NCBI GenBank assembly: GCA_947377705.1
Contig: CANCGU010000012.1
Coordinates: 1 to 21,937 of the forward strand
Direction of reading: 5' to 3'
Length of the DNA: 21,937 bases
Origin: Comamonadaceae bacterium
GTDB lineage: Bacteria; Pseudomonadota; Gammaproteobacteria; Burkholderiales; Burkholderiaceae
Part shown: positions 5,296 through 21,937 of the stretch, one piece after another
Numbering within the stretch: position 1 is the stretch's first letter
How the letters are laid out: each line of letters opens with the position of its first letter
Notes under the pieces: model-generated
Seen by the model: the letters and a program-made list of their open reading frames with translations, nothing else
The model's database searches: none
What the model was told of the DNA's origin: nothing
Program-made: the position numbers and the translations under genes

Positions 5296-5342
5296 GATGT
5301 GAGAGGGGATTGAGTGGGATAAAGTTCGATGCAAATCAAGAA

Positions 5343-5991: not shown

Positions 5992-6025
5992 GTGTCACAG
6001 TTTCGTCACAATGGATAGCTAAAGT
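5992..6025 (+). promoter_or_regulatory. Pho box and -10 of the pst-pho operon
   Basis: GTGTCAC-AGTT-TCGTCAC at 5992-6009 is a tandem pair of PhoB half-sites 11 bp apart, the standard Pho-box geometry. Ten nt later comes TAAAGT (6020-6025), a -10-like hexamer at the same spacing as in E. coli phoA. A further GTCAT at 5985 is 9 bp upstream and out of register. The site precedes pstS, the expected PhoB target. PhoB is encoded in the same operon, so autoregulation is likely. Confidence 0.75.
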
Positions 6026-6056: not shown

Positions 6057-7088
6057 ATGAACTCGAAGCGCAATTTCATTAAATCTATAGCCGCTGCTGC
6101 AATGGCAACTTTGGCTATGGGTTCTGCCTTCGCGGCCGACATCACAGGCGCGGGCGCGACTTTCCCTTTCCCTGTTTATGCCAAGTGGGCTGAAGGCTAC
6201 AAGGCCGCCACGGGCAATGGCCTGAATTACCAATCCATTGGCTCTTCGGGTGGGATTCGTCAAATCAAAGCGAAGACCGTGACATTTGGTGCAACCGATG
6301 CGCCTTTGTCTGGTGAGGAGTTGGATAAAGAAGGCCTGGTTCAGTTCCCCGCCATCATCGGCGGCACAGTGCCCGTTGTGAACTTGGAAGGCTTCAAGCC
6401 TGGTGAATTGCGTGTCACGGGTGCAGTTTTGGCCGACGTATTTTTGGGCAAGATTGCCAATTGGAATGACCCCAAAATTGCCGCTCTGAACCCCGGCAAA
6501 AAACTGCCTGATCAAGCGATCACCATCGTTCACCGCGCAGATGGCTCTGGGACGACCTTTAACTTCACTGACTATTTGAGCGCAGTCAGCAAAGATTGGT
6601 CTGACACAGTGGGCAAGGGGCCTGCTGTCAAGTGGCCTGCTGCGTCCTCGGTGGGCGGCAAGGGCAATGAAGGCGTGGCCGCAAACGTGAACCGCGTCAA
6701 AGGCGCTGTGGGTTATGTGGAATATGCCTATGTGAAAAAGAACAACATGACATTCATGCAGCTTCAAAACGCCGATGGCAAATATGTGGCACCGGATGAT
6801 TTGACATTCGCCTCTGCCGCCGCTGGTGCTGACTGGATGAAAGTGCCAGGCATGGGTGTCTCGATGGTCAACGCCAAGGGCGCAGCCAGCTGGCCAATCA
6901 GCACGGCTTCATTCATCTTGATGTACAAGCAACCCGCGGACAAGGTTGCGGCTGCTGAAGCGATCAAATTCTTTGACTGGGCTTTCATCAACGGTAAAAA
7001 GATGGCACAAGACCTCGACTACGTGGCGTTGCCTGACAGTCTCACCACGCAAATTCGCGCCAAGGTGTGGACGCAAATTCAGAAGTAA
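6057..7088 (+). CDS. pstS: Phosphate ABC transporter substrate-binding protein PstS
   Basis: 343 residues with a Sec signal peptide ending at about ...GSAFA-AD (residue 26), so it is periplasmic. It captures inorganic phosphate and delivers it to PstCA. Family motifs are clear: ITGAGATFPFPVYAKW at the mature N-terminus, QSIGSSGGIRQI, FGATDAPLS, and the phosphate-loop segment HRADGSGTTFNFTDYL. ATG 6057 follows the ribosome binding site GAAGGAA (6046-6052). It is the first gene of the pst-pho operon behind a Pho box, and is separated from pstC by a hairpin that may give excess PstS over the membrane subunits. Confidence 0.98.
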   Translation: MNSKRNFIKSIAAAAMATLAMGSAFAADITGAGATFPFPVYAKWAEGYKAATGNGLNYQSIGSSGGIRQIKAKTVTFGATDAPLSGEELDKEGLVQFPAIIGGTVPVVNLEGFKPGELRVTGAVLADVFLGKIANWNDPKIAALNPGKKLPDQAITIVHRADGSGTTFNFTDYLSAVSKDWSDTVGKGPAVKWPAASSVGGKGNEGVAANVNRVKGAVGYVEYAYVKKNNMTFMQLQNADGKYVAPDDLTFASAAAGADWMKVPGMGVSMVNAKGAASWPISTASFILMYKQPADKVAAAEAIKFFDWAFINGKKMAQDLDYVALPDSLTTQIRAKVWTQIQK

Positions 7089-7108
7089 TCTGAATTGAGT
7101 GAATGATC

Positions 7109-7142
7109 TCCGTCGGCTCTGTCAAAGTGTCGGCGGATTTTT
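7109..7142 (+). terminator. Intercistronic hairpin with T-tract between pstS and pstC
   Basis: TCCGTCGGC (7109-7117) pairs with GTCGGCGGA (7129-7137) over nine base pairs including two G-T wobbles, with an 11-nt loop, followed by TTTTT (7138-7142). It looks like a partial intrinsic terminator or a 3'-end stabiliser just after pstS. In other bacteria such elements make the binding protein more abundant than the permease; that role is inferred here. Confidence 0.6.
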
Positions 7143-7166
7143 AGTTTTAAAAAGCAGGGTGTTTCA

Positions 7167-8177
7167 ATGAGTCTAGGGTCTGTCATGAGCTCACACAATC
7201 TATCGCAACAAGAGCGTAGCCAAGTTGTCACGACTGACATGATTGCTATTGCTAAGAAGCAGCGCCTGCAAGACTTCTTATTTCACCGTGTCACTCAGGC
7301 GTTTTCTTTGCTGGTGTTGGTGGCCTTGTTGGGCATCATCTTGTCATTGTTTGTCAATGCATGGCCGACGTTTGAAAAGTTTGGTTTTCATTTTTTATGG
7401 CATGTCGAGTGGGACATTATTAACAACGACTTTGGCGCCGCCATTGCCGTCGTAGGCACAGTCGCGAGCGCCAGTATTGCGTTGTTGATTGCTGTGCCAT
7501 TGGCGTTTGGCGTTGCTGTATTTCTGACGGAGACCTGCCCAGTGTGGTTGCGTCGTCCATTGGGAACATCTATTGAATTGTTGGCGGCCGTGCCATCCAT
7601 CATTTATGGCATGTTTGGCTTGTTTGTGTTCGCCCCTTTGTTTGCCGATCACTTGCAAGTGCCATTGCAAAAAGTCTTGGGCGGTATGCCCTTGGTAGGT
7701 TTCTTGTTTGGTGGTGCCACCAACGGCATGGGCATCTTGGCCGCTGGCATTGTGTTGGCTTTTATGGTGCTGCCATTTGTGGCTGCGGTGATGCGTGATG
7801 TATTTGAGATCACGCCGCCGATTTTGCGTGAGTCTGCTTATGGTCTGGGGTGCACCACATGGGAAGTGGTGCGCCAAGTGGTGCTGCCTTACACACACAA
7901 AGGCGTCATTGGCGGCATCATGTTGGGCTTGGGTCGTGCTTTGGGTGAAACCATGGCTGTGACTTTTGTGATTGGCAATGCCAACCGCATGCCCACGTCT
8001 TTGTTCTCACCCGGAACCTCGATTGCCTCCGTCTTAGCCAATGAATTTGGTGAAGCTGAGGCCTTGCATTTTTCTACATTGTTCGCGCTTGGCTTCTTGT
8101 TGTTTGTCATCACTTTTGTGGTGTTGGCGATGGCCAAGATGATGATCATGCGTGCCGAAAAAGCCAAAGGCAACTAA
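7167..8177 (+). CDS. pstC: Phosphate ABC transporter permease PstC
   Basis: 336 residues with six predicted transmembrane helices. It is one of the two inner-membrane permease subunits of the high-affinity phosphate importer. Recognisable parts are LLAAVPSIIYGMFGLFVFAP in the middle and the cytoplasmic EAA loop that contacts PstB (ESAYGLGCTTWEVVRQVVLP), followed by GLGRALGETMAVTFVIGN. ATG 7167 has an AGGG ribosome binding site about 8 nt upstream; an in-frame ATG at 7185 is a weaker alternative. It is followed by pstA after 10 bp. Confidence 0.97.
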   Translation: MSLGSVMSSHNLSQQERSQVVTTDMIAIAKKQRLQDFLFHRVTQAFSLLVLVALLGIILSLFVNAWPTFEKFGFHFLWHVEWDIINNDFGAAIAVVGTVASASIALLIAVPLAFGVAVFLTETCPVWLRRPLGTSIELLAAVPSIIYGMFGLFVFAPLFADHLQVPLQKVLGGMPLVGFLFGGATNGMGILAAGIVLAFMVLPFVAAVMRDVFEITPPILRESAYGLGCTTWEVVRQVVLPYTHKGVIGGIMLGLGRALGETMAVTFVIGNANRMPTSLFSPGTSIASVLANEFGEAEALHFSTLFALGFLLFVITFVVLAMAKMMIMRAEKAKGN

Positions 8178-8187
8178 GAGATTTTCT

Positions 8188-9042
8188 ATGGAAATGAATA
8201 AACAACTTTATATGAAACGCCGGATCACCAGCATGCTGGGCTTGGCGTTTTCCATGGCCGCGATGGCCGCGGGTTTGGCCGTTTTGCTTTGGATCTTGTA
8301 TGTGTTGTTTGCCAATGGTTTGTCTGCATTAGATGGTAATTTGCTCACCAGCGACACACCCGCACCCGGCACCGAAGGCGGTGGCTTACGCAACGCAATT
8401 GTGGGCAGTTTGATGATCGTGGGCTTGACGGTGGGCGTGTCTACACCCGTAGGTATCTTGGCAGGCATCTACTTGACCGAATATGGTGATGAAAGCAAAA
8501 CCGCAGAGCTGACCCGTTTTGTCACTGACATCATGTTGTCGGCACCATCCATTGTGTTGGGCTTATTTGTGTATGCCATTGCCGTGGCGACCGTGGGTAA
8601 CTTTTCAGGTTACGCAGGTAGCTTGGCGTTGTCGCTGATTGCAGTACCTGTCATCATGCGCACGACAGAAAACATGTTGCGCTTGGTGCCTGGCAGTTTG
8701 CGTGAAGCAGCATTCGCATTAGGGGCCCCGCGTTGGAAGGTGTCTACTTTCATCACTTTGCGTGCCGCACGCAGCGGTGTGATGACCGGTTTGTTGCTCG
8801 CCGTGGCCCGCATCAGTGGCGAAACAGCACCGTTGTTGTTTACTGCATTGAACAACCAATTCTTCAGCACCGACATGGGCGCTCCGATGGCCAATTTGCC
8901 GGTGGTGATTTTTCAATTTGCGATGAGCCCTTACGAAAACTGGGTGCGTTTGGCTTGGGCCGGTGCGCTATTGATTACTTTGACGGTGCTGGTTCTCAAC
9001 GTGTTGGCGCGTGTTTTCTTCCGCGAAAAAGTCAGCTCTTAA
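8188..9042 (+). CDS. pstA: Phosphate ABC transporter permease PstA
   Basis: 284 residues with six hydrophobic helices. It is the partner permease to PstC. Typical segments are GGLRNAIVGSLMIVGLTV, the PSIVLGLFVYAI block and the EAA loop EAAFALGAPRWKVSTFITL, then ARISGETAPLLFTA. The open frame begins at GTG 8152 inside pstC, but ATG 8188, preceded by AAGAG at 8176-8180, gives the natural N-terminus; ATG 8194 is also possible. It lies 10 bp after pstC and 18 bp before pstB. Confidence 0.96.
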   Translation: MEMNKQLYMKRRITSMLGLAFSMAAMAAGLAVLLWILYVLFANGLSALDGNLLTSDTPAPGTEGGGLRNAIVGSLMIVGLTVGVSTPVGILAGIYLTEYGDESKTAELTRFVTDIMLSAPSIVLGLFVYAIAVATVGNFSGYAGSLALSLIAVPVIMRTTENMLRLVPGSLREAAFALGAPRWKVSTFITLRAARSGVMTGLLLAVARISGETAPLLFTALNNQFFSTDMGAPMANLPVVIFQFAMSPYENWVRLAWAGALLITLTVLVLNVLARVFFREKVSS

Positions 9043-9060
9043 TTTCAATTGGATGAACAA

Positions 9061-9837
9061 ATGTCTGAAATCAAAACAGCTACAAAAAATGCCATCGAAG
9101 TTCGAGATCTGAACTTCTACTACGGCAAGTTCCACGGTTTGCGCAATGTCACCATGGACATTGCTGAGCGAAAAGTCACGGCGTTCATCGGACCCTCTGG
9201 TTGCGGTAAGTCCACTTTGTTGCGCACCTTGAACCGCATGTACAGCTTGTACCCGGGCCAGCGCGCGGAAGGTCAAATCAATTTTTACGGCCAAAATATT
9301 TTGGATCCCAAGCAAGACTTGAACTTGCTACGCGCCCGCATTGGCATGGTGTTTCAAAAACCCACACCATTCCCCATGACCATCTACGACAACATCGCTT
9401 TTGGCGTGCGTCTGTATGAAAACCTCAGCCGTACTGAAATGGACGAACGCGTGGAATGGGCTTTGACCAAAGCCGCCTTGTGGAATGAGGTCAAAGATAA
9501 GCTTGGCCAAAACGGTTTATCGCTCTCTGGCGGCCAACAGCAGCGTTTGTGCATTGCACGCAGCGTCGCGGTGAAACCTTCGGTCTTGTTGTTGGACGAG
9601 CCTACCTCGGCGCTTGACCCTATTTCGACTGGCAAGGTTGAAGAACTGGTGCATGAGCTGAAGGCCGACTACACCATCGCCATCGTCACGCACAACATGC
9701 AGCAAGCCGCGCGTTGCAGCGATTACACCGCGTATATGTATTTGGGTGAGTTGGTGGAGTTTGGCGAGACAGAGCAAATCTTCTTCAAGCCCAATAAAAC
9801 TGCTACCGAAGATTACATTACCGGCCGCTTTGGCTAA
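9061..9837 (+). CDS. pstB: Phosphate ABC transporter ATP-binding protein PstB
   Basis: 258 residues, the full length of the cytoplasmic ATPase that powers PstCA. It has Walker [10 protein letters not shown] (44-52), Q-loop Gln99 (VFQKPTPFP), ABC signature LSGGQQQR (155-162), Walker B LLLDE (176-180) followed by PTSALDP, and the switch His in IVTHNMQQA. The frame extends to TTG 9049, but ATG 9061, with GGA at 9051-9053, gives the usual N-terminus. phoU follows after 12 bp, completing the importer and its regulator. Confidence 0.98.
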
Positions 9838-9849
9838 TAGGAGATAACC

Positions 9850-10551
9850 ATGCCAGAAAAACACCTGTCCTCACAGTTTGATTCCGACCTTAACCACATC
9901 TCCTCGCATGTGATGGAGTTGGGTGGTTTGGTGGAGTCACAAATCCGTCAAGCGGTTTATGCCTTGTCTCAGTTCAGTCCAGAAGCGGCTGAAGATGTGT
10001 TGGTGACAGAGCACAAGGTCAACAGCATGGAAGTCGAAATCGACCGAGAAATTGCCTCTGTGATTGGACGCCGCCAGCCCACTGCACGCGATTTGCGTTT
10101 GTTAATGGCAATGTCTAAAACAACAGCCAATCTAGAGCGCGTCGGTGATGAAGCGGCCAAGATCGCTCGCATGGTCAAGTCCATCATTGAAAGCTCTGCG
10201 CCCCGTTCATTGCCTTCTAGCGATTTGCGCGTCTCGGCTGAATTGGCGTCGGGTTTGTTGCGAAAAGCCTTGGACGCCTTTGCGCGCTTAGATGTACCGA
10301 TGGCTGTGACGATCTTGCGCGAAGACAACGAAATTGATCAAGAGTTCGATGGTTTTGTTCGCAAACTCATCACCTACATGATGGAAGACCCACGCACCAT
10401 TTCTGCCAGCCTCGATTTGTTGTTCATCGCCAAAGCCATTGAGCGCATCGGGGATCACGCCAAAAACATTGCGGAATTCATCATCTACATCGTCAGGGGT
10501 GAAGATGTGCGACACACGCCTTTGGCCGATGTCGAATCCTCAATGAGCTAA
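9850..10551 (+). CDS. phoU: Phosphate signalling regulator PhoU
   Basis: 233 residues forming two PhoU three-helix bundles. Each carries the acidic metal-binding signature: E..(I)DREI with TTANLERVGDEAAKIA in the first repeat and DNEIDQEF with AIERIGDHAKNIAEFIIY in the second. PhoU links the Pst importer to the PhoR kinase and keeps the Pho regulon off when phosphate is plentiful. AGGAGA just upstream of ATG 9850 is a strong ribosome binding site. The position between pstB and phoB is the usual betaproteobacterial arrangement. Confidence 0.97.
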   Translation: MPEKHLSSQFDSDLNHISSHVMELGGLVESQIRQAVYALSQFSPEAAEDVLVTEHKVNSMEVEIDREIASVIGRRQPTARDLRLLMAMSKTTANLERVGDEAAKIARMVKSIIESSAPRSLPSSDLRVSAELASGLLRKALDAFARLDVPMAVTILREDNEIDQEFDGFVRKLITYMMEDPRTISASLDLLFIAKAIERIGDHAKNIAEFIIYIVRGEDVRHTPLADVESSMS

Positions 10552-10568
10552 TCGGAAGTTTTGAAGAC

Positions 10569-11255
10569 ATGAAAATTGCACGCGTTTTGGTGGTCGAGGA
10601 TGAGTCAGCAATTGCTGAACTCATTTCGATCAATTTGCGGCATAACGGTATGTTGCCTTTGCTGGCCGCAGATGGTGTGGCAGCACAAAAGCACATCGAT
10701 GAGGTATTGCCGGATGTGATTTTGTTGGACTGGATGTTGCCCGGGCAAAGCGGTTTGGAGTTAGCCCGTCGCTGGCGTGCGGACCCCCGTACCAAAACCA
10801 CGCCTATTTTGATGCTCACGGCCCGTGGCGACGAACCTGACAAAATTGCCGGCCTTGATGCGGGGGCTGATGACTACATCACCAAGCCTTTTTCGACGCA
10901 AGAACTTCTGGCTCGCATTCGTGCGGTGCTACGTCGCCGTGCCCCAGAGCAGGCCAGTGATGTGGTGCGTATTGGTGGGTTGCAGTTGGATGGTTCGACG
11001 CACCGAGTGAGCTTCAATGACCAAGCTATCAAACTTGGGCCTACAGAGTTCAAGTTGCTGAACTATTTGATGCACCATGCCGAACGTGTGCACAGTCGCA
11101 GCCAATTGCTAGACCGCGTGTGGGGTGACCATGTGTTCATTGAAGAGCGTACGGTCGATGTACATGTCAAACGCTTGCGAGAAGCTTTGGGCAATGCAGG
11201 TGGCATGGTCGAGACAGTGCGTGGCGTAGGATACAGAATCACCCATCAGTTCTAA
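10569..11255 (+). CDS. phoB: Phosphate regulon response regulator PhoB
   Basis: 228 residues. The receiver has the acidic pair E10-D11, phospho-acceptor Asp54 (ILLDWMLPGQSG), Thr84 and Lys106 (TKPFSTQELL). The C-terminal winged-helix domain contains GPTEFKLLNYLMHH, the recognition region ERTVDVHVKRLREAL and the wing GVGYRI. Phosphorylated by PhoR, it should bind Pho boxes and contact sigma-70. Candidate targets in this window are pstS, dgkA, tatT, the PlsC-like gene and olsB. It lies 17 bp after phoU and 18 bp before phoR. Confidence 0.97.
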   Translation: MKIARVLVVEDESAIAELISINLRHNGMLPLLAADGVAAQKHIDEVLPDVILLDWMLPGQSGLELARRWRADPRTKTTPILMLTARGDEPDKIAGLDAGADDYITKPFSTQELLARIRAVLRRRAPEQASDVVRIGGLQLDGSTHRVSFNDQAIKLGPTEFKLLNYLMHHAERVHSRSQLLDRVWGDHVFIEERTVDVHVKRLREALGNAGGMVETVRGVGYRITHQF

Positions 11256-11273
11256 ACCCGATGCAAGGTTCAT

Positions 11274-12623
11274 GTGATCAGTCGATTTCTCTCGTTTCTC
11301 TCCCTGCTAGCTTTTGGTGCCGCGATCGGTTACTCGTGGGCCGTGATGGGGGGCAAACAACCGCAGTCAATTTATTTGTTGATTGGTGCCTTGTTGGCAG
11401 GTCTTTTTTGGGTCTTGGTTGATGCCTGGCGCGGCTATCGCGTACGTTCTTGGTTGCGCCAAGGTGACTTGGCTATGGCGCCGCAGATGTCGGGCTGGTG
11501 GGGGGTCGTTTTAGACCGGGCTCGCAAGCTCTTACGCGAACGCGAACGCAGCATCGACGCTGGTGAACAGCGCCTCAAAGATTTTCTGTCTGCTATTCAG
11601 GCCTCACCCAACGGCGTGGTCATGCTCGATGCCAATGCGCAGATTGAGTGGTGTAACCAAACGGCAGCTACCCATTTAGGCATCCATCCCGATCGCGACG
11701 TCATGCAACGCGTGGGCAACTTGCTACGCGACCCTGTGTTCACGGCCTACATGTCGGTCGATCAACCGGTCGAACCTGTGGTGATGGCCGGTTACAGGAA
11801 CCGCCTGGAGCGCCCTGTGCGCATATCGGTGCAGCGCCACCGTTATGGAGAAGGTAAGCAATTGTTGTTGACCCGTGATGTCACGATGCTGGAACAGGCT
11901 GAAGCGATGCGCCGTGACTTTGTGGCCAACGTGTCGCACGAAATTCGCACACCGCTCACGGTCATGTCTGGTTTTGTAGAAACGCTGCAAACCCTGAACT
12001 TGAATGCTGACGAACAAAAACGCTATTTGGGGTTGATGGCCATTCAGGCCGTGCGCATGCAAGGGCTGGTGGAAGACTTACTCACTCTCTCGCGCTTGGA
12101 AGGCAGTCCTGTTCCTAACTTTGCAAACAGCCTGCCTTTGGTGGGGTTGTTGACTGTATGTGAGTCAGAAGCGCGTGGCTTGTCAGACACCATTTCTCGT
12201 GGTGCAGAGCCTCAGGTCATTCAATTTAATATCAACCCTTTGATTGCTAACGCGCTATTGCTGGGTGAGGTACGTGAATTGCAAAGTGCGATGTCTAACT
12301 TGGTGAGCAATGCGGTGCGTTACACCCCAGCAGGGGGAAGCATCCATGTGGCTGTTGAACCAGGCACTGATGGCAGTTTGTTGATTTCAGTTCGCGACAC
12401 AGGCCCAGGCATCGCGGCTGAACACTTGCCACGATTGACGGAGCGTTTTTATCGTGTTGACCGCAGTCGATCGCGTGAGTCGGGTGGCACAGGACTTGGT
12501 TTGGCTATTGTGAAGCATGTGATGCAACGCCATGGAGGCAGCTTGGCCATCACAAGTGAAGTTGGTCAAGGCTCTTGCTTCAAATTGACTTTTCCAGCGA
12601 ATCGCTGGAGGCTGGAAAGTTAA
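11274..12623 (+). CDS. phoR: Phosphate regulon sensor histidine kinase PhoR
   Basis: 449 residues starting at GTG 11274; the ATG two bases earlier is out of frame and hits a stop at once. Two N-terminal membrane helices (about 5-25 and 32-50) with almost no periplasmic loop fit the PhoR type that senses through Pst/PhoU. A PAS domain follows (about 100-200), then the HisKA motif NVSHEIRTPLT with phospho-acceptor His222. The catalytic domain has the N box (LVSNAVRYTP), G1 (VRDTGPGI), F (ERFYRVD) and G2 (GGTGLGLAIVKH). It ends only 14 bp from the convergent corA-like gene, with no terminator hairpin seen. Confidence 0.96.
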   Translation: MISRFLSFLSLLAFGAAIGYSWAVMGGKQPQSIYLLIGALLAGLFWVLVDAWRGYRVRSWLRQGDLAMAPQMSGWWGVVLDRARKLLRERERSIDAGEQRLKDFLSAIQASPNGVVMLDANAQIEWCNQTAATHLGIHPDRDVMQRVGNLLRDPVFTAYMSVDQPVEPVVMAGYRNRLERPVRISVQRHRYGEGKQLLLTRDVTMLEQAEAMRRDFVANVSHEIRTPLTVMSGFVETLQTLNLNADEQKRYLGLMAIQAVRMQGLVEDLLTLSRLEGSPVPNFANSLPLVGLLTVCESEARGLSDTISRGAEPQVIQFNINPLIANALLLGEVRELQSAMSNLVSNAVRYTPAGGSIHVAVEPGTDGSLLISVRDTGPGIAAEHLPRLTERFYRVDRSRSRESGGTGLGLAIVKHVMQRHGGSLAITSEVGQGSCFKLTFPANRWRLES

Positions 12624-14001: not shown

Positions 14002-14295
14002 TCAGAAATACTGTGAAAATTTTAAAAACAAAGCACTGAGCCAAATGCCCATGCAAAATAGGATGCTCAGCAATACAGCGGCGCTTCCTAAATCCTTGCA
14101 ACGTTTAGAAAGATCATGCCATTGCGGACCCACACGATCGATGGCGGGAATTAATACAAAAGCAAGGATATTCTCTTGTCTGAATGCAGGCTCATGCATA
14201 CCAGCTTGCACGCCCTGCAAAGAGTAGCCAAGGGCATAAATGACTCGGTTTAGGCCGCGTCTTTTTTTGTGTGGATTTTCATGAATGGCGTTCAT
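14002..14295 (-). CDS. dgkA: Internally shortened diacylglycerol kinase (DgkA-like, probably inactive)
   Basis: 97 residues, against about 120-125 for DgkA. The N-terminal part (VIYALGYSLQGVQAGMHEPAFRQE) and the C-terminal part (DRVGPQWHDLSKRCKDLGSAAVLL, including the conserved Lys-Asp) match DgkA well. Between Ala51 and Ile52 about 34 residues are missing relative to E. coli DgkA: the end of helix 1, helix 2 and the block VEILNSAIEAVVD with catalytic Glu69, Asn72 and Glu76. The frame is intact. DgkA phosphorylates membrane diacylglycerol to phosphatidate; this version should not be able to. A good candidate Pho box lies directly upstream. A real deletion or an assembly error are both possible. 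Confidence 0.85.
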   Translation of the reverse strand: MNAIHENPHKKRRGLNRVIYALGYSLQGVQAGMHEPAFRQENILAFVLIPAIDRVGPQWHDLSKRCKDLGSAAVLLSILFCMGIWLSALFLKFSQYF

Positions 14296-14303
14296 TACAA
14301 GTA

Positions 14304-14337
14304 AATTTACAAAAAATATGTGACTGTGGTGTGACGA
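14304..14337 (-). promoter_or_regulatory. Candidate Pho box and -10 upstream of dgkA/corA-like genes
   Basis: On the minus strand TCGTCAC-ACCA-CAGTCAC (14337-14320) is a near-ideal PhoB repeat with 11-bp period. After exactly 10 nt comes TAAATT (14309-14304), a -10-like hexamer, 9 bp before the dgkA ATG. The layout matches the pstS site in this window and the known phoA promoter of E. coli. Transcription would start essentially at the ATG, so the message may be nearly leaderless. Confidence 0.62.
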
Positions 14338-14353: not shown

Positions 14354-15235
14354 TTAATAAATTTCAGGAATCACCATATCGTCGGGTACAGGTTGACGGA
14401 GGTAGTCGGGGTTTCGCACGCGCGCTGGCAACTGCACCTCTGGGTGCTCGATTTCGTGATATTTGAAATGGTCTAGTAAATGGTGAATGCAGTTCAGTCG
14501 CGCACTTTTTTTATCGACTGCTTGAACGACCCACCAAGGTGCTTCTGGTATGTGTGTGCGTTCAATCATGGTTTCTTTGGCCACGGTGTAGTCTTCCCAG
14601 CGGCGACGACTTTCTAGATCCATGGGGCTGAGCTTCCATTGTTTCAAGGGATCATGGATGCGACCTAAGAAACGTGCATGCTGCTCATCGTCAGTGATTG
14701 AAAACCAATACTTGATAAGCGTGATGCCACTGCGAGCCAACATTTTTTCAAACTCAGGCACGGTCCTGAAAAATTCTTCGTATTCATCGTCATTGCAAAA
14801 GCCCATGACGCGCTCGACACCTGCACGGTTGTACCAACTTCGGTCAAACAACACAATTTCGCCTGCTGCAGGTAGGTGTGCCACATAGCGCTGAAAGTAC
14901 CACTGTGTGCGTTCTCGGTCGTTGGGGGCGGGAAGGGCAGCTACGCGACAGACGCGTGGATTCAGGCGTTGCGTGATGCGTTTGATGACGCCCCCTTTGC
15001 CTGCCGCGTCTCGGCCTTCAAACAGGATCACGACCTTTTGCTTGGTAGCGACGACCCAATCTTGCAGTTTTACCAGTTCGCCTTGTAGGCGAAGAAGTTC
15101 ACGAAAGTATTTGGCGCGGTCTGTGTTGCTGCCATCTTCGTCGATGGACATTTCGAGCTCTTCATCCAGTGTGTCCAAGATGTCATCGCGCAGGCGTTGA
15201 ATTTGTTCTTCATCAAGTGGGTGTTTGTCGCGCAT
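14354..15235 (-). CDS. ppk2: Polyphosphate kinase 2 (PPK2)
   Basis: 293 residues from ATG 15235, with AAAGGAA about 7 nt upstream; the frame stays open to GTG 15295 but that N-terminus lacks family character. PPK2 transfers phosphate between polyphosphate and nucleotides, often making GTP or ATP from polyphosphate. Motifs: Walker A GRDAAGKGG (74-82), FDRSWYNRAGVERVMGF (Walker B region, 130-146) and the lid-like segment RIHDPLKQWKLSP. Single-domain length fits class I PPK2. It is divergent from the TRAP operon and upstream of dgkA on the same strand. The neighbourhood with the Pst/Pho operon fits phosphate storage or mobilisation. Confidence 0.94.
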   Translation of the reverse strand: MRDKHPLDEEQIQRLRDDILDTLDEELEMSIDEDGSNTDRAKYFRELLRLQGELVKLQDWVVATKQKVVILFEGRDAAGKGGVIKRITQRLNPRVCRVAALPAPNDRERTQWYFQRYVAHLPAAGEIVLFDRSWYNRAGVERVMGFCNDDEYEEFFRTVPEFEKMLARSGITLIKYWFSITDDEQHARFLGRIHDPLKQWKLSPMDLESRRRWEDYTVAKETMIERTHIPEAPWWVVQAVDKKSARLNCIHHLLDHFKYHEIEHPEVQLPARVRNPDYLRQPVPDDMVIPEIY

Positions 15236-15288
15236 GGTCATTTCCTTTGACCACATCATGGACAAAGACTGTTGCAGCTTGATGACGG

Positions 15289-15322
15289 TTGTCACTGAAT
15301 ATTCACACGGCAGATTTACATT
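15289..15322 (+). promoter_or_regulatory. Candidate Pho box and -10 of the TRAP-T operon
   Basis: TTGTCAC-TGAA-TATTCAC (15289-15306) has the two TCAC cores 11 bp apart, the second half-site being weaker. Ten nt later is TACATT (15317-15322). The position, 41 bp before the proposed tatT start, is suitable for activation by PhoB. The box is less perfect than those of pstS and dgkA. Confidence 0.5.
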
Positions 15323-15362: not shown

Positions 15363-16241
15363 ATTTCTTACTGTCGCATCGTTTCCATTTTTGTTTTAGT
15401 TCTACTTTTTTCAGGGTGTGCTGTTCGTCCCTTTGTGGTTGATCAAGCAGCACAGGCCCTATCTGCACAACCGGTTTCGAGTGAAGATGATTTGCAGCTC
15501 GCACGAGAAGCCAGTGCTTTTTATCTGAAGTTCTCTGAATCGGTGCTCAAAGAAACCCCCGGTCATTTGAAATTGGCTGAGTCAGTGTCAGCGGGATTTA
15601 CACAATACGCTTATGCGTTTGTGGTGTTGGATGCCGAAAAGCTGGATGCCAAAAATTCGAAAGCGGCAGCAGAGATGCGAGTACGTGCGGCACGCCTCTA
15701 CGCACGTGCGCATCGCCATGCCATGACAGCGCTTGAGCGCAACCACGTGGGTTTTTCTGCCGCGCTCAGGCAGTCAGATCCGAAGAAACTGCCGCGTCTT
15801 ACCCAAGCCCAAGTGCCTTTGGCGTATTGGGCTGCGGCCTCTTTAGGTGGCTGGATTTCAATGTCTAAAGACGACCCAGATTTGGTGGCCGACTTGCCGC
15901 TGTCCATGCGCTTGGCAGAGATGGCTTGGCAAATCGACCCCGCGTATGGGCAAGGCGCATTGGCCAGTTTGATGGGTACCTTAGAAGCGGCCAAGGTGGG
16001 TGGTTCGCGTCAAAAAGCACAGACTTACTTTGACCAAGCAATTGCTATGGGGCAAGGTCATGAAGCTGGGCCGTTGGTTGCCAAAGCGGAAGGCATTGCC
16101 TTACCTGCTGAAGACCGAATGCAGTTTGAACAATTGCTACAGCAGGCGCTTGACATTAGCAAGCAGCACCATAGCTTGTCAAACGAAGTGATGCGCGAGC
16201 GTGCGCAATGGTTGCTCTCATCCGTGGATGATCTTTTTTGA
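15363..16241 (+). CDS. tatT: TRAP transporter TatT-component lipoprotein (probable AUU start)
   Basis: 292 residues if translation starts at ATT 15363. The first ordinary start, GTG 15435, would drop a perfectly good lipoprotein signal that is in frame: CRIVSIFVLVLLFSGC with lipobox FSGC (Cys19). Between the upstream in-frame stop (15342) and 15435 there is no ATG, GTG or TTG, but AGAGG (15351-15355) lies 7 nt before ATT 15363. The mature protein is alpha-helical with TPR-like repeats (YAYAFVVLDAEKL..., YWAAASLGGWISM, AEMAWQIDPAYGQGAL) and matches TatT, the partner of a special class of TRAP transporters known from Treponema pallidum Tp0956. It would sit on a membrane facing the periplasm beside the binding protein encoded 9 bp downstream. 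Confidence 0.82.
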   Translation: MSYCRIVSIFVLVLLFSGCAVRPFVVDQAAQALSAQPVSSEDDLQLAREASAFYLKFSESVLKETPGHLKLAESVSAGFTQYAYAFVVLDAEKLDAKNSKAAAEMRVRAARLYARAHRHAMTALERNHVGFSAALRQSDPKKLPRLTQAQVPLAYWAAASLGGWISMSKDDPDLVADLPLSMRLAEMAWQIDPAYGQGALASLMGTLEAAKVGGSRQKAQTYFDQAIAMGQGHEAGPLVAKAEGIALPAEDRMQFEQLLQQALDISKQHHSLSNEVMRERAQWLLSSVDDLF

Positions 16242-16250
16242 AAGCAGTGA

Positions 16251-17276
16251 ATGTCTCAATTTATCAAATCGTGTTTACAAACCTGCGTGGTTGTGAGTTT
16301 GTTGTGCAGCCTGTCGGTATCGTGGGCGGCCCCTGATAAGCAGTTGCGATTAGGCACCTTAGCGCCAAAAAACTCGCTCTACCACCGCCAACTGATGGAT
16401 ATCGGAGAGGCATGGCGTGCAGCCCAAGGTGGCAATGCCAAGTTTGTGGTGTACCCCGATGGCAGCCAAGGGGGTGAAACAGAACTCGCCCGCCGCATGC
16501 GCATTGGCCAGCTACAAGGTGCCTTGCTGTCTGTGGTGGGTTTACGTGAGATCGAGCCATCGATTGCGGCTTTGCAATCGATGCCCTTGTTGTTCAAAAC
16601 ATGGGACGAGGTGGACTACGTGCGCGAAAAAATGCGGCCTGCCATGGAGAAAAAATTCCTAGACAAAGGTTTTGTCGTGTTGGCTTGGGGGGATGCAGGC
16701 TGGGTGCGCTTTTTCTCGAAAGACCCTGCCTTCAAACCTGAGGACTATCAAAAGATGAAGTTCTTTGCATGGGGCGGCGAGGCTGATCAGCAAGAAATCA
16801 TGAAGAGCATGGGCTACACGCCTGTGCCGCTAGAGACCAGCGACATCTTGCCTTCGGTGCAAACCGGCATGATCAACGTGGTGCCTTCGACGCCGTACTT
16901 TGCGCTGGCCAGTCAGGTCTACACCATGACACCAAACATGCTGGAAATTAATTGGGCGCCCATCGTGGGGGCTTTGGTCGTGACCAAAAAATCTTGGGAC
17001 GACATGACGCCTGAAACGCAAGCCGCTGTGCGCCTGGCCAGCGACAAAGCAGGAGCGCAAATACGAATCAAGGCGCGTCAAGAGGTGGAAGAAGCGGTGG
17101 ACGCCATGAAAAAACGTGGCTTGGTGGTCAACAAACCCAATGCTGAGCAAATGCGTGCGTGGAATGAGTTGGCTGAAAAACTTTACCCTCGCATTCGTGG
17201 CACCTTGGTGCCTAGCGAAACTTTTGACGAGGTGTTTCGCCACTTGAAAGCGTATCGCGCAGGAAAAACCAAATGA
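16251..17276 (+). CDS. dctP: TRAP transporter substrate-binding protein (TatP/DctP family)
   Basis: 341 residues with a Sec signal peptide (cleavage about ...SVSWA-AP, residue 26-27), so periplasmic. Fold motifs of DctP proteins are seen: LRLGTLAPKNSLYHRQ, YPDGSQGGETEL, MPLLFKTWDE and PSVQTGMINVVPSTP. At the place where most family members have the Arg that clamps an organic-acid carboxylate, this protein has KMKFFAWGG (168-176) with Phe instead. That resembles the TatT-associated binding proteins (for example Tp0957), thought to bind hydrophobic ligands. The ligand is unknown. Its stop overlaps the permease start in an ATGA. Confidence 0.88.
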   Translation: MSQFIKSCLQTCVVVSLLCSLSVSWAAPDKQLRLGTLAPKNSLYHRQLMDIGEAWRAAQGGNAKFVVYPDGSQGGETELARRMRIGQLQGALLSVVGLREIEPSIAALQSMPLLFKTWDEVDYVREKMRPAMEKKFLDKGFVVLAWGDAGWVRFFSKDPAFKPEDYQKMKFFAWGGEADQQEIMKSMGYTPVPLETSDILPSVQTGMINVVPSTPYFALASQVYTMTPNMLEINWAPIVGALVVTKKSWDDMTPETQAAVRLASDKAGAQIRIKARQEVEEAVDAMKKRGLVVNKPNAEQMRAWNELAEKLYPRIRGTLVPSETFDEVFRHLKAYRAGKTK

Positions 17277-19078
17277 TGGGGCGACTTCTACGCGGCCTGA
17301 CACAGGTCGATGCCCTGCTGGCTGCGTTGGCTTTGGCCTTGATGGCATTGATTCCTTTGATCGAAATTTTGTCTAGGCCATTGATGGGCAAGGGCATCGA
17401 TAACGCCCCGGTGGTGGTGCAGCACTTGGGCTTGTTCATGGCCATGTGCGGTGCGATTGCAGCGGAGCGATTTGGTCACCTCACGAGTCTTGGCGTGATG
17501 GTGCCGCGCATGTATGTGGTGGGGCAGTTTGGTGCTGCGGTTGTGTGCGGTGTGCTTGCGTGGGCAAGTGGTCAATTGGTGAGCAGTGAAATGACTGCGG
17601 CTCAGATGCTGGCCTATGGCATCCCGGTGTGGTGGTTTCAAGCGAGCATGCCTTTGGGCTTTGCACTTTTGGGTTTGAAGTTGGGGGCGCGGTGTAGTCA
17701 GCACGTTGGCGTGAAGTTTCTGTGTGCGCTGAGTGCGGTTTTTCTTGGTGTGTTTTTTGCCCACAGCTTTGATGGTGCAGCCTTGCCTTTGTGGCCCTGG
17801 GTGATTGGTTTGGTGTTGATGCTGTCATTTGGGGCGCCCATTTTTGCGGTGTTGGGTGGCTTGGCATTGGCGCTGTTTTGGCAAGATGGCTTGCCACTGG
17901 CGTCTATTGCGTTGTCGCATTACCAAATCACGGTGAACCCTTCGTTGCCTGCGTTGCCGTTGTTTACATTGGCTGGTTTGATCTTTGCAAGCACGGGCGC
18001 TGCGCAGCGTTTAGGTGCTGTTTTTGTGGCGCTGTTCGGTGGCGGCAAAGCAGGCACTGTGATTGCTGCCACTGTTTTGTGTTCTTGCTTCACCGCCTTC
18101 ACAGGTGGCAGTGGGGTGACCATTTTGGCTTTGGGGGGCTTGCTATTACCGCTGTTGCAGGGGGTCGGGTATCCAGACCGCAAAGGCATTAGCCTGATTA
18201 CAAGTGCCAGTGCCCTCGGCGTTTTGTTGGCACCGTCGGTGCCGCTCATCATGTACGCCATCATTGCGCGTGTCCCCATCAACACCATGTTCTTAGCCGG
18301 TATCGTGCCTGCGGTGGTGATGGTGGTGTGCTTGCTGATTTTTGGTGGTTATCTGCGCCAAGACGTGGTTCGTACGGTGCAAACCGAGATACCTGTATTT
18401 AGCGTTGCCTTGTTGCGTCACGTGACTTGGCAGGCCAAGTGGGAGTTGTTGGCACCCGTAGCCGCCATTGGTTCTTTGGCCAGTGGCTTTGCAACGCCGA
18501 CAGAGAGTGCTGCGCTCACGGCCATTTATGCCGTGCTTACACAAGCTTGGGCGCATCGTGAATTGGATGTCAAGAAACTTGGCGCATGTTTGTCGCAATG
18601 CACCCAGATCATTGGTGGGGTGATGTTGATTTTGGGTATGGCTTTGGGCTTGACCAATTATTTGATCGATGCAGGCATTCCTGACTTGGCGACTGAATGG
18701 GTGCAAAGCGTCACACAAAACAAATGGGTGTTTTTGTTGGCTCTGAACGTTTTCTTGTTTGCCGCGGGTGCCTTAATGGAAATCTATGCTGCGATTGTGG
18801 TGTTGGTGCCATTGTTGCTGCCATTGGCGACCAGTTATGGCATTGACCCCGTTCACTTTGGCATCATCTTTTTAGCCAATATGGAAATGGGGTTCTTGTG
18901 TCCACCCGCAGGCATGAACATTTACTTTGCCTCTGCCGTGTTCAAGCAACCGATTCGCACGGTGGCTGCCTCGGTGGCGCCTGCGTTGTTGGCGATCTTT
19001 GTCGGAACGCTGATGATTTCTTGGCTACCACTTCTCGCCACAGGTTTGCCAAGTTTTGTGATGTCACTTACGCGTTGA
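17273..19078 (+). CDS. Fused TRAP transporter permease (DctQ-DctM)
   Basis: 601 residues, a natural fusion. Residues about 1-170 are a four-helix DctQ-like small subunit (LALMALIPLIEILSRPLM, QHLGLFMAMCGAIAAERFGH). Residues about 175-600 are the DctM large subunit with many helices and family landmarks such as PALPLFTLAGLIFASTGAAQRL, FTAFTGGSGVTILALGGLL, GFATPTESAALTAIYAV and EMGFLCPPAGMNIYFASAVF. It would carry the solute across the inner membrane driven by a sodium or proton gradient. It overlaps the binding-protein gene by 4 bp. Its last 11 bp overlap the convergent PlsC-like gene. Confidence 0.93.
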   Translation: MMGRLLRGLTQVDALLAALALALMALIPLIEILSRPLMGKGIDNAPVVVQHLGLFMAMCGAIAAERFGHLTSLGVMVPRMYVVGQFGAAVVCGVLAWASGQLVSSEMTAAQMLAYGIPVWWFQASMPLGFALLGLKLGARCSQHVGVKFLCALSAVFLGVFFAHSFDGAALPLWPWVIGLVLMLSFGAPIFAVLGGLALALFWQDGLPLASIALSHYQITVNPSLPALPLFTLAGLIFASTGAAQRLGAVFVALFGGGKAGTVIAATVLCSCFTAFTGGSGVTILALGGLLLPLLQGVGYPDRKGISLITSASALGVLLAPSVPLIMYAIIARVPINTMFLAGIVPAVVMVVCLLIFGGYLRQDVVRTVQTEIPVFSVALLRHVTWQAKWELLAPVAAIGSLASGFATPTESAALTAIYAVLTQAWAHRELDVKKLGACLSQCTQIIGGVMLILGMALGLTNYLIDAGIPDLATEWVQSVTQNKWVFLLALNVFLFAAGALMEIYAAIVVLVPLLLPLATSYGIDPVHFGIIFLANMEMGFLCPPAGMNIYFASAVFKQPIRTVAASVAPALLAIFVGTLMISWLPLLATGLPSFVMSLTR

Positions 19079-19811
19079 GCAATTCAAGTTGGTTGCTAAC
19101 GCTGCGATGTGACAAGTGTGCCAAAGTTCTGCGCGAGTGCCCTTGCGGTGAAAGCAACGCACCCGCGTGAACCTTGGCATGGATGCCTGTAGACGTCATC
19201 ACTTGGTGCAGCGATTGAACAAAACCGATGTCTCCAATGAATGCTGCCTTCAAACACAGTGCACCCGTGTTTGGGTTTGTATAACGGATGGCCAAGGGCT
19301 GGACTTGAATGTGGTGATGGATGGCCGCTTCAAATAAGTTGGCGTGAAAAAGGCTGACCGTGCTGCCTTCGCTGCTGGTGCCCTCGGGGAAACCAGCTAC
19401 ACAGTAGCCGTGGTGCAGCGCACTGGACACATCGTCCACCATGCGGCGCGCTGAGCTTGGCGACCCGCGATCGACAAAAACAACGCCGCATGCCGTTGCA
19501 ATGCTTCCCACGATGGGCCAATGTTTGACTTCTGACTTGGCGACAAAAATACTAGGTTGAATGGATTGAATGATGAGTGCATCTACCCAAGACACATGGT
19601 TGGCGACGAACATGAGTGGGGCCGCTGATTGCTCAATCTGTGCGAGCGACGTTTCATGAAGAACTCGAATACCAAGAATCTCTAACGTGTGTTGAGACCA
19701 AATTTTGATTTCTTCAAGTTTTCTATCCCGATTCAATCGGGGGAATTTGATCCACAAAATCCAGAAGGCGCGGCCAAAGGCGTGTATGAGTCTTAAATAT
19801 TTAATCAGCAT
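19068..19811 (-). CDS. plsC: Lysophospholipid/lyso-ornithine-lipid acyltransferase, PlsC/OlsA-like
   Basis: 247 residues from ATG 19811. The frame also has ATG 19841, but homologues begin close to MLIKYLRLIHAFGRAFW, and the predicted promoter would place the transcript start between the two codons. The acyltransferase signature is NHVSWVD (His72, Asp77), with FPEGTSSEG (141-149) as the acceptor-phosphate motif and an N-terminal membrane-associated helix. The enzyme moves an acyl chain from acyl-ACP or acyl-CoA onto a lyso-lipid. Divergence from an OlsB-like gene suggests the OlsA step of ornithine-lipid synthesis, but ordinary PlsC activity (phosphatidate) is the main alternative. Confidence 0.86.
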   Translation of the reverse strand: MLIKYLRLIHAFGRAFWILWIKFPRLNRDRKLEEIKIWSQHTLEILGIRVLHETSLAQIEQSAAPLMFVANHVSWVDALIIQSIQPSIFVAKSEVKHWPIVGSIATACGVVFVDRGSPSSARRMVDDVSSALHHGYCVAGFPEGTSSEGSTVSLFHANLFEAAIHHHIQVQPLAIRYTNPNTGALCLKAAFIGDIGFVQSLHQVMTSTGIHAKVHAGALLSPQGHSRRTLAHLSHRSVSNQLELLNA

Positions 19812-19823
19812 GGTTGATTGATA

Positions 19824-19857
19824 AGCATAGGTTCGATGCATGACAAATTGATGAATG
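19824..19857 (-). promoter_or_regulatory. Candidate Pho box and -10 of the PlsC-like gene
   Basis: On the minus strand CATTCAT-CAAT-TTGTCAT (19857-19840) has the cores 11 bp apart; 10 nt later comes TATGCT (19829-19824), four of six matches to TATAAT. Transcription would begin near 19817, just ahead of ATG 19811. The first half-site is weak, so this is tentative. Confidence 0.45.
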
Positions 19858-19875
19858 ATTTGTTGAAATTTGTCA
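19841..19875. repeat. Perfect inverted repeat in the PlsC-like/olsB intergenic region
   Basis: TGACAAATT (19841-19849) and AATTTGTCA (19867-19875) are perfect 9-bp arms with a 17-nt spacer. Each arm carries the strongest half-site of the two outward-facing candidate Pho boxes, so the symmetry may be one PhoB-controlled divergent promoter rather than a separate operator. Confidence 0.6.
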
Positions 19876-19906
19876 CGAATATTTCATGCAATCTTCGCGG
19901 TTAATT
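19870..19906 (+). promoter_or_regulatory. Candidate Pho box upstream of olsB-plcP-agt
   Basis: TTGTCAC-GAAT-ATTTCAT (19870-19887) has cores 11 bp apart. A -10-like TTAATT lies at 19901-19906, 13 nt after the box, which is 3 nt longer than in the other sites. It is 67 bp ahead of ATG 19955. The second half-site is degenerate. Confidence 0.45.
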
Positions 19907-19954
19907 CACATGCGCTGACAAGAATTAACGACATTGATTTACCAAGGAGCCACC

Positions 19955-20803
19955 ATGAAAGAACTGCCAAACCCAACCATGCCGCTGTCGTTCATCGATG
20001 TGCCCCGGGGGTCACTTCATCGAAACGATCTTGACGCTGAAAAAGTTTCTGTCTCCGCTCAAAAAACTCAAACCCGCCCAAGTTTGATTATCGAATGGGC
20101 CCAGCACCAAGACGAAGTGCGTGAGGCACAACGCCTGCGTTATGACGTGTTCGCCACAGAAATGGGCGCACGTTTGAAAGACAGTATTCCAGGACATGAC
20201 ATCGACTTGTTCGATGACTTTTGCGAGCATCTCATCATTCGTGACGACGTGACTGAGCAAGTGATCGGAACTTATCGTGTATTAACGCCTGCACAAGCCA
20301 AGCGCATTGGCAGCACGTATTCAGATTTAGAGTTCGATCTCACGCGTTTGCGTCAATACCGCGATCGCATGGTGGAATTGGGTCGAAGCTGCGTGCACCC
20401 CGATCACCGACATGGTGGCGTCATCATGGCGTTGTGGGGCGCATTGGCTGAGTTCATGGTGCGCAACAAACTCGATGTAATGATCGGTTGTGCCAGCATT
20501 CCCATGTTGCACCAAGGCGTAGTGAGTGGTGAAGTGGCGGCCAGCATTTGGCACCAACTCAAGGCCACGCATCTGGCAGATGTTGAAAACCAAGTGACAC
20601 CACGCTTGGCGCTCCCAGTGGAACAGTGGGACGTCAACCCTGCATTTGAGCCACCTGCGCTGATCAAAGGCTACTTGCGCTTAGGTGCCAAAGTTTTAGG
20701 TGCACCTGCATGGGACCCAGATTTCAACACCGCCGACTTGCCCATGTTGATGAAGATCAATGACATGCATCCGCGCTATCGCAAACATTTTTTAGGCGCT
20801 TGA
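19955..20803 (+). CDS. olsB: OlsB-like GNAT N-acyltransferase (ornithine lipid synthesis)
   Basis: 282 residues from ATG 19955 with ribosome binding site AAGGAG at 19944-19949; a TTG at 19934 is in frame but less likely. The protein belongs to the hemolysin-like/OlsB acyltransferase group: REAQRLRYDVFATEMG, DIDLFDDFCEHLIIRD, IGTYRVLTP, FDLTRL, MVELGRSCVHPDHR and MIGCASIPM are characteristic. OlsB transfers a 3-hydroxyacyl group from acyl-ACP to the alpha-amino group of ornithine, forming lyso-ornithine lipid, which OlsA then acylates. The stop codon overlaps the plcP start by one base (TGATG). The family is firm; the ornithine specificity is inferred from family and neighbours. Confidence 0.85.
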   Translation: MKELPNPTMPLSFIDVPRGSLHRNDLDAEKVSVSAQKTQTRPSLIIEWAQHQDEVREAQRLRYDVFATEMGARLKDSIPGHDIDLFDDFCEHLIIRDDVTEQVIGTYRVLTPAQAKRIGSTYSDLEFDLTRLRQYRDRMVELGRSCVHPDHRHGGVIMALWGALAEFMVRNKLDVMIGCASIPMLHQGVVSGEVAASIWHQLKATHLADVENQVTPRLALPVEQWDVNPAFEPPALIKGYLRLGAKVLGAPAWDPDFNTADLPMLMKINDMHPRYRKHFLGA

Positions 20804-21573
20804 TGCATTACAGAGCGATTTTCATCTCCGATTTGCATTTGGGCACACCTGGCTGTCAAGCAGATGCGCTGTTGGATTTCTTGAAAGAAAACACCAGCGA
20901 CTACTTGTACCTCGTGGGAGACATCATTGATGGTTGGCAATTACGCCGTCGTTGGTATTGGCCACAAGCACACAACGATGTGATTCAAAAGCTCCTGCGC
21001 AAAGCGCGCAAAGGTTGCCGTGTAATTTATGTGCCGGGTAACCACGATGAATTTGCCCGACATTTTTTAGACCACCATTTTGGTGGCATTGAAGTGGTTG
21101 ATGAGGCGGTTCACAAAACAGCCGATGGTCGTCAGCTGTGGGTGATTCACGGGGACTACTTTGATGCTGTCGTGCAGCAAGCCAAGTGGCTCGCTTATGT
21201 AGGCGACTATTTGTATGAATTCACGCTCAAGTTGAACCGTTACTTGAACAACATGCGTGGTCGATTAGGCCTGCCGTATTGGTCGCTGTCGGCCTACCTC
21301 AAGCACAAGGTGAAGAAGGCGCTCAACTACGTCACTGACTTTGAAAATGCTGTGGCGCATGAAGCAGCCAAACATGGCTATCAAGGCGTGGTGTGTGGTC
21401 ATATTCACCGAGCTGAAATTCGCGATGTGAACGGTGTGTTGTATTGCAACGATGGCGATTGGGTAGAAAGCCGCAGTGCCTTGGTAGAGAACGAACGTGG
21501 CGAGTTGTCGTTGCTCTATTGGCAAACAGAACCGACTGTTTTAGAAAAACCTGAACTGGCTAAAGCAGCATGA
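20803..21573 (+). CDS. plcP: PlcP-like metallophosphoesterase (phospholipase C type)
   Basis: 256 residues from ATG 20803 (TTG 20800 is also in frame). Calcineurin-like metal ligands are complete: SDLHLG (Asp10, His12), VGDIIDGW (Asp40), PGNHDE (Asn80, His81), VIHGDYFD (His116) and CGHIHRAEI (His200, His202). The stretches GWQLRRRWYWPQAHNDV and YWSLSAYLKHKVKKA are as I recall them in Sinorhizobium meliloti PlcP, which cleaves phosphatidylcholine and related phospholipids to diacylglycerol and phospho-headgroup in phosphate starvation. Generic annotation would be UDP-2,3-diacylglucosamine diphosphatase family. It is translationally coupled to olsB (TGATG) and to the glycosyltransferase (ATGA), which supports the PlcP reading over LpxH. 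Confidence 0.85.
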   Translation: MHYRAIFISDLHLGTPGCQADALLDFLKENTSDYLYLVGDIIDGWQLRRRWYWPQAHNDVIQKLLRKARKGCRVIYVPGNHDEFARHFLDHHFGGIEVVDEAVHKTADGRQLWVIHGDYFDAVVQQAKWLAYVGDYLYEFTLKLNRYLNNMRGRLGLPYWSLSAYLKHKVKKALNYVTDFENAVAHEAAKHGYQGVVCGHIHRAEIRDVNGVLYCNDGDWVESRSALVENERGELSLLYWQTEPTVLEKPELAKAA

Positions 21574-21937
21574 AAATCGCGCTCATCACAGATGCATGGC
21601 GTCCCCAAATTAATGGTGTTGTCACTACCTTGGTGGAGTTAGTGGATCAACTCAGTGCCAAGGGGCATGTGGTGGAAGTGATTCATCCCGATCTATTCAA
21701 GACGCGTCCATGTCCAGGTTACGCTGGCATTGATTTAGCGGTCAAACCATATGCACAGTTGGCACTGCAGCTGGATGCGTTTGCGCCTGATGTGATTCAT
21801 ATTGCCACAGAAGGGCCGCTAGGTTGGGCTGCTCGTAAGTATTGCTTGAAGCACAATTTTCCATTCACGACGGCATTTCACACCCGTTTCCCTGAGGTCT
21901 TGAAAGCTGCATTGCGTATTCCGCTTTGGATTGGCTA
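21570..21937 (+). CDS. agt: Agt-like GT4 glycosyltransferase (partial, 3' end outside window)
   Basis: The first 122 residues of a family-4 glycosyltransferase with the GT-B fold. MKIALITDAWRPQINGVVTT is the N-terminal nucleotide-fold motif, and GHVVEVIHPD, PDVIHIATEGPLGWAAR and TTAFHTRFPEV follow, as in SQD2-like and Agt-like lipid glycosyltransferases. ATG 21570 overlaps the plcP stop (ATGA). Directly after plcP this is the order of the plcP-agt operon of marine and rhizobial bacteria, where Agt adds a sugar to the diacylglycerol that PlcP releases. Sugar donor and product are unknown; mannosyltransferases of the same family are the alternative. Confidence 0.83.
   Translation, partial: MKIALITDAWRPQINGVVTTLVELVDQLSAKGHVVEVIHPDLFKTRPCPGYAGIDLAVKPYAQLALQLDAFAPDVIHIATEGPLGWAARKYCLKHNFPFTTAFHTRFPEVLKAALRIPLWIG

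Follow-up and report, generated by a model that had tools for sequence, protein, structure and literature searches.

A predicted PhoB-controlled lipid-economy island beside the pst-phoBR genes of a Limnohabitans-like Comamonadaceae bacterium

Do the lipid genes that lie downstream of the phosphate-uptake genes in a Comamonadaceae bacterium form one phosphate-responsive unit? The window analysed here is the whole 21,937-nucleotide stretch of contig CANCGU010000012.1 (assembly GCA_947377705.1), which carries olsA-, olsB-, plcP- and agt-like genes near pst-phoBR. Its OlsB-like protein shared 94-96% identity with those of the ten nearest loci, including Limnohabitans sp. Jir61 and metagenome-assembled genomes, and the window resembles Limnohabitans-like Comamonadaceae. 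We consider it probable, at roughly 80%, that the region is a lipid-economy island under PhoB control: known enzymes in a new arrangement, by which phosphorus-containing membrane lipids would be swapped for phosphorus-free ones.

The lipid genes and their predicted products

All four lipid genes were present with open frames. The OlsA-like acyltransferase (19068..19841, - strand) was divergent from the OlsB-like N-acyltransferase (19955..20803, + strand), for which the open reading frame (ORF) tool gave a TTG start at 19934, but the ATG at 19955 was preceded by AAGGAG. The PlcP-like phosphoesterase (20803..21573, + strand) shared base 20803 with olsB, the TGA of one gene and the ATG of the other forming TGATG, a one-base overlap. 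The plcP and agt-like genes overlapped by ATGA at 21570-21573. Upstream, the pstSCAB-phoU-phoB-phoR genes (6057..12623, + strand) encoded PstS, PstC, PstA, PstB, PhoU, PhoB and PhoR, each above its curated NCBIfam cut-off, and the distance from the end of phoR at 12623 to olsB was 7.3 kb. The sequence-only reading of this DNA had claimed four genes with one-base and four-base overlaps and a divergent olsA, OlsBA-type beside PlcP-Agt-type genes, and phoBR within 8 kb; the frames, the profiles reported below and the positions bore out all three. The island is larger than those four genes, as it also includes dgkA, ppk2 and a TatT-type TRAP transporter operon.

The OlsB-like protein (282 amino acids) contained a GNAT domain (Pfam Acetyltransf_5), and its best profile was OlsB. 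The NCBIfam OlsB models, whose names suggest Rhodobacter capsulatus and Brucella, scored 168 and 151 bits, versus 45 for OlsF, 30 for a PEP-CTERM acyltransferase and 26 for GlsB. A PDB sequence search with this protein returned no match, and its AlphaFold model (mean pLDDT 40.8) was too poor for searching. The OlsA-like protein matched OlsA best rather than PlsC: the NCBIfam OlsA models scored 121 and 100 bits, versus 78 for the acylglycerophosphate acyltransferase model TIGR00530 (cut-off 103) and 30 for PRK15018. As judged from these families, the product of the two acyltransferases is most likely ornithine lipid.

The agt-like gene (21570..21937, + strand) lay immediately 3' of plcP and ran for 122 codons, with a Glyco_transf_4 match, before the window end truncated it. 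Its counterpart in a relative (locus L002) encoded 355 amino acids with GT4 and GT1 domains. No curated model matched the L002 protein above its cut-off, and lipid-glycosyltransferase models scored the agt-like protein far under theirs (82 of 480 and 58 of 400 bits). The order in L002 was agt, an ORF of 127 amino acids (12680-13063, + strand; no Pfam or NCBIfam match), ugd and lplT; among the 21 nearest loci, ugd was found in 7 and lplT in 8. Further downstream in L002 (17225-20457), we observed a weak Mpo1-like match, a class III aminotransferase-like protein and a phosphatidylserine decarboxylase-like protein. Near plcP, L097 also encoded relatives of the latter two, and L091 and L094 a relative of the aminotransferase-like protein.

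Conserved gene order and Pho-box-like sites

Gene order was compared in two samples, 90 Burkholderiales genomes and the best 80 of 487 stretches that encode a relative of OlsB, a selection that biases the latter sample to near kin. In the 80 loci, plcP began within 400 bp after olsB in 56, and agt came next in 36. All of the 21 nearest loci (OlsB identity at least 84%) had olsB-plcP and 18 had agt as well; olsA was divergent from olsB-plcP-agt in 15, and some of the other six loci were truncated at contig ends. The four-gene layout is not chance.

Across the 90 genomes, PlcP was found in 42, OlsB in 60, TatT in 8 and DgkA in 66. Pairs within 10 kb were counted in genomes having both genes, with the centre genome (G001) included in each count: plcP-olsB in 9/34, dgkA-plcP in 8/34 and dgkA-olsB in 11/51. 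A linked pair was present in 22 of the 63 genomes having at least two of the three genes, and plcP and olsB lay within 400 bp of each other in G001 and G015 only. The order differed between loci. In L093 and L096, ppk2-olsA was divergent from plcP-agt-dgkA-olsB; in L092, plcP and olsB-olsA adjoined phoRB; in L095, olsB-plcP adjoined pst; and L090 had the order olsB-plcP-agt. Since the same genes cluster in differing orders, they point to a working module rather than an inherited neighbourhood.

These counts also bear on three points of the sequence-only reading. The olsB-plcP-agt order, whose conservation it had proposed to check, is indeed kept well beyond the window. The pairing of olsB with plcP, which it had called unusual, is common in near relatives and is unusual only in the sense that a minority of the order-wide genomes have it. 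Finally, it had described a single regulatory island by phoBR. The regulatory part gained from the Pho-box-like sites before olsB, olsA, dgkA and the TRAP genes; the adjacency to phoBR proved to be one arrangement of several, as pst/pho genes (at least 50% identity) were found in the flank covered in 26/80 loci, and in 20 of the 48 whose 10-kb flanks were complete.

Pho-box-like sites were sought with two models. The 18-bp matrix was trained on 19 pstS promoters of other loci, of which two picks (L051, L079) were poor and differed from those of the second model, and were retained. The 34-bp model describes the Pho box plus spacer and -10, and was run against 300 shuffles. Its top match was the reference site, the pstS promoter at 5992..6025 (+ strand; 31.5 bits, 0 expected in the 300 shuffles), followed by the predicted promoters of dgkA at 14304..14337 (- strand; 20.3 bits) and of the TRAP operon at 15289..15322 (+ strand; 19.2 bits), each with 0.003 expected per shuffled window. 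After these, the best match scored 8.8 (0.38 expected). A Pho box of 11-bp repeats was thus strong upstream of pstS, dgkA and the TRAP genes.

With both strands of the window scanned, the 18-bp matrix scored pstS highest (17.8), then olsB (13.1) and, third, a site at 14320 (- strand) upstream of dgkA (12.5). The TRAP genes had the seventh-ranked site (10.2) and olsA the ninth (9.7, the 98th percentile of background), equal to a site inside phoR. Upstream of olsB, the repeats spanned 19870..19910 (+ strand), with the scored site at 19870-19887; the other 11-bp-spaced half-sites were recognised by eye in the alignment of L001-L021, where they were kept amid drifting flanks, with a low score in L011 (4.3). 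Among the olsB upstream regions of the window and the 80 loci, 68/81 scored at or above the 95th background percentile, 9 of them at or above the 99th. The olsA site, with a possible -10, lay at 19824..19857 (- strand), and a start of olsA at 19811 would fit this promoter better than the annotated one. On the olsA strand, the 95th percentile was reached by 18 of 22 regions and, where a divergent olsA match was present, by 17 of 18; L009 missed it narrowly, and the top site of L003 was out of register. PhoB control of the ols genes is likely. Pho boxes were predicted upstream of olsB in Burkholderia sensu lato, as given in the part of that report cited here (PMC7814305).

Points against the island and alternative explanations

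Several observations weigh against a PhoB-controlled island of this kind. The 34-bp model gave olsA -1.3, none of its 12 best positions lay in the olsB promoter, and the one olsB stretch that was scored gave -41.7, possibly in a wrong register; PhoB control is therefore predicted with less certainty for olsA and olsB than for dgkA and the TRAP operon. Sites matching the 18-bp score of olsB were expected 0.72 times per shuffled window, so that this site is not rare alone and its case rests on conservation. All 13 of the 81 olsB upstream regions that fell below the 95th percentile had plcP adjacent, and the regions of loci lacking an adjacent plcP all passed (24/24), which indicates that the site tracks olsB and not the pairing. 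In 25 of the 34 genomes with plcP and olsB, the pair was not within 10 kb, in some perhaps because of short contigs. Three of the near loci were without agt: L018 stops 768 bases past olsB, and L004 and L009 had lplT directly 3' of plcP and no agt in the sequence covered, so the glycolipid branch may be absent in these two. Lastly, both acyltransferases scored under the curated equivalog cut-offs (350 and 320 bits for the OlsB models; 300 for the OlsA model that gave 121) and were filed as OlsB-like and OlsA-like.

The low scores of the N-acyltransferase leave some room for an enzyme that is PhoB-controlled like its neighbours and uses another amino acid, so that the product would not be ornithine lipid. 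Other aminolipids, e.g. glutamine and glycine lipids, are made by related GNAT enzymes according to the portions of PMC6298996 and PMC11631085 cited here. Both OlsB models nevertheless beat the GlsB glycine-lipid model by at least 125 bits, and no glutamine-lipid model was among the matches; moreover, an OlsA-like gene adjoins the N-acyltransferase gene. We regard this alternative as unlikely and retain ornithine lipid as the predicted product.

It is considerably less probable that unrelated envelope genes lie together here through inherited synteny and that the Pho-box-like sites are accidental. Much of the window is common to close relatives by descent, and the shuffling result for the olsB site given above would fit such an accident. 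Against it stand the clustering of the same genes in other orders in other genomes, the retention of the olsB block as its flanks change (by eye), and the large majority of olsB upstream regions that reached the 95th percentile. A chance neighbourhood was ruled out by the conserved order in 56/80 loci together with the clustering in differing orders and the linkage counts.

Among the findings that would overturn it, the sequence-only reading had named a phosphoesterase of the LpxH type. The protein carried all the motifs of a calcineurin-like metallophosphoesterase (SDLHL, GDIIDGW, GNHDEF, HGDYFD and GHIHRA), and two LpxH models failed to recognise it (43 bits with a cut-off of 190 for TIGR01854, and 48.5 bits with a cut-off of 134). 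A separate LpxH exceeded the cut-off in seven of eight relatives' genomes; in the eighth (G002), LpxH was in two pieces, each below the cut-off. In all eight, the LpxH match was on a different contig from OlsB. When 17 PlcP-like and 6 LpxH proteins, the latter from six of the seven loci (G003 was missed by the motif filter, and G002 with its split LpxH was left out), were placed in one tree, they fell into two clades with 100/100 support, and the third motif read GNHDE in 17/17 PlcP-like and GNRDF in 6/6 LpxH proteins. LpxH identity was ruled out by the 43/190 bits, the LpxH encoded elsewhere in relatives and the clade split. That the gene encodes an LpxH-type lipid A enzyme among ordinary envelope genes is thus the most improbable explanation, even though the two proteins belong to one superfamily, all four PDB sequence matches of the phosphoesterase are LpxH, and many of its close homologues are labelled LpxH in one source. 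The phosphoesterase is PlcP-like and not LpxH; the name is based on this exclusion and on the agt neighbour, and phospholipase activity is predicted.

Neighbouring genes, known systems and meaning

The dgkA-like gene (14002..14295, - strand) encoded 97 amino acids of the diacylglycerol kinase family, matching Pfam DAGK_prokar in two stretches (45 bits). In all eight near loci that have dgkA at this position (L001-L003, L005-L007, L009 and L010) the gene encoded 128-131 amino acids, and in alignment with them the window protein was without one 34-residue block that includes the conserved VELLNTGLES, a segment that holds catalytic residues in DgkA. The gap is either a real deletion or an assembly fault. 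Jir61 has a second dgkA elsewhere in its genome (two matches). Among seven aligned relatives, the Pho half-sites of dgkA were seen by eye in L002, L006, L007 and L010, partially in L009, and not in L003 and L005. Next to dgkA, ppk2 (14354..15295, - strand) encoded polyphosphate kinase 2 (TIGR03707, 375 bits; cut-off 302). A table of Phaeobacter proteins that respond to phosphate includes PPK2, as we read its columns (PMC10132767).

The TRAP genes (+ strand) lay together and encoded a TatT-like T component (15435-16241), DctP (16251-17276) and a DctQM fusion (17273-19078), with Pfam matches to TAtT, DctP, DctQ and DctM. The T component and DctP showed direct sequence similarity to the Treponema pallidum TPAT proteins TatT (3u64, E 1.4e-23) and TatP(T) (3u65, E 1.6e-17), respectively. 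In contrast to the T. pallidum TPAT, the window genes have a predicted Pho promoter and adjoin lipid-remodelling genes. The Pho-like TRAP site was found in the window and in 13/13 near TatT loci, ten by alignment and three (L001, L012 and L014) by scan; in L005, L009 and L010, another position scored higher. It was not found in six more distant TatT loci (best score 4.1; L088 was outside the scan), so that among the loci scored it was confined to Limnohabitans-like ones. The TRAP genes adjoined olsA in 14 of the 21 near loci.

The strong predicted Pho promoter, the 13/13 near versus 0/6 distant sites and the adjacency to olsA, together with TPAT structures that suggest hydrophobic ligands in the part of PMC5812351 cited here, led us to a tentative idea of rather low probability: the TatT-type TRAP transporter may have been recruited to the Pho regulon of the Limnohabitans lineage, where it would import lipids, lysolipids or fatty acids, and outside acyl chains would be recycled into the phosphorus-free lipids that the products of the neighbouring olsB-plcP-agt genes make. 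An alternative role as a head-group importer weighs against lipid import. It is suggested by analogy with Phaeobacter, in which an ethanolamine TRAP protein is tabulated as increased when phosphorus is depleted, in the part of PMC10132767 cited here.

The mechanism we propose for the island follows from enzyme families; activities, substrates, PhoB binding and induction are all inferred. At low phosphate, PhoR-PhoB would turn on pst, the divergent olsA and olsB promoters, and the dgkA and TRAP promoters. PlcP would remove phosphorylated head groups from glycerophospholipids to give diacylglycerol (DAG), which Agt would glycosylate; Ugd, encoded nearby in relatives, may supply UDP-glucuronate as the donor for glucuronosyl-DAG. 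From OlsB and OlsA would come an aminolipid free of phosphorus, with ornithine lipid as the likeliest product. Excess DAG would be converted back to phosphatidate by DgkA, a step that may be missing here because of the internal deletion in the window gene.

Parts of this scheme have been described elsewhere, as far as the portions of the reports cited here go. In the PlcP-Agt renovation systems of Phaeobacter, SAR11, Methylosinus and Pseudomonas aeruginosa (PA3219-PA3218), plcP also adjoins a glycosyltransferase gene, and in P. aeruginosa a Pho box was reported upstream (PMC4796936, PMC8528852, PMC9239053). The window differs in that the same apparent operon starts with olsB; olsB is not named among the six plcP neighbourhood types in the text of section 13 of PMC4796936. 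The OlsBA pathway of Sinorhizobium and Burkholderia likewise uses OlsB- and OlsA-like acyltransferases (PMC7814305), whereas the window has olsA diverging from an olsB that is joined to plcP-agt. For P. xenovorans, ornithine lipids were said to replace phospholipids in low phosphate, with the data not shown there (PMC7814305). A set of functions that is nearly that of the window is found in the PHO-dependent lipid proteins of P. putida BIRD-1 (PlcP, DagK, OlsA, OlsB and TuaD), of which PlcP, OlsAB and TuaD were absent in the phosphate-starved PHO mutant (PMC5082522). By locus tag, olsA-olsB (0974-0975) is far from plcP (1390) in that strain (PMC5082522), whereas the window presents one island adjoining pst-phoBR, with ppk2 and the TRAP transporter in addition. 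As the functions are already known as a regulon, the apparent novelty is that they are brought together at a single locus along with a TPAT transporter. Among the open-licence papers listed by title and opening of the abstract, and in the parts of reports cited here, there was no description of an olsB-plcP operon, of one island with a lipid-type transporter, or of lipid remodelling in Limnohabitans.

On the other side of pst, at 3761-5373 (- strand), we also observed genes for an SBF-family transporter and a low-molecular-weight phosphatase-like protein, possibly an Acr3/arsenate reductase pair adjoining the phosphate transporter.

Phosphorus is often limiting in lakes, and Limnohabitans-like bacteria are common there. 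If one island links the sensing of phosphate to the stripping of phospholipids, the synthesis of glycolipids and aminolipids, the recycling of DAG and the use of polyphosphate, it would explain how these bacteria lower their need for phosphorus. It also hints at a possible role for TatT-type TRAP transporters and, if the lipid-import reading is true, would give TPAT transporters a physiological role.

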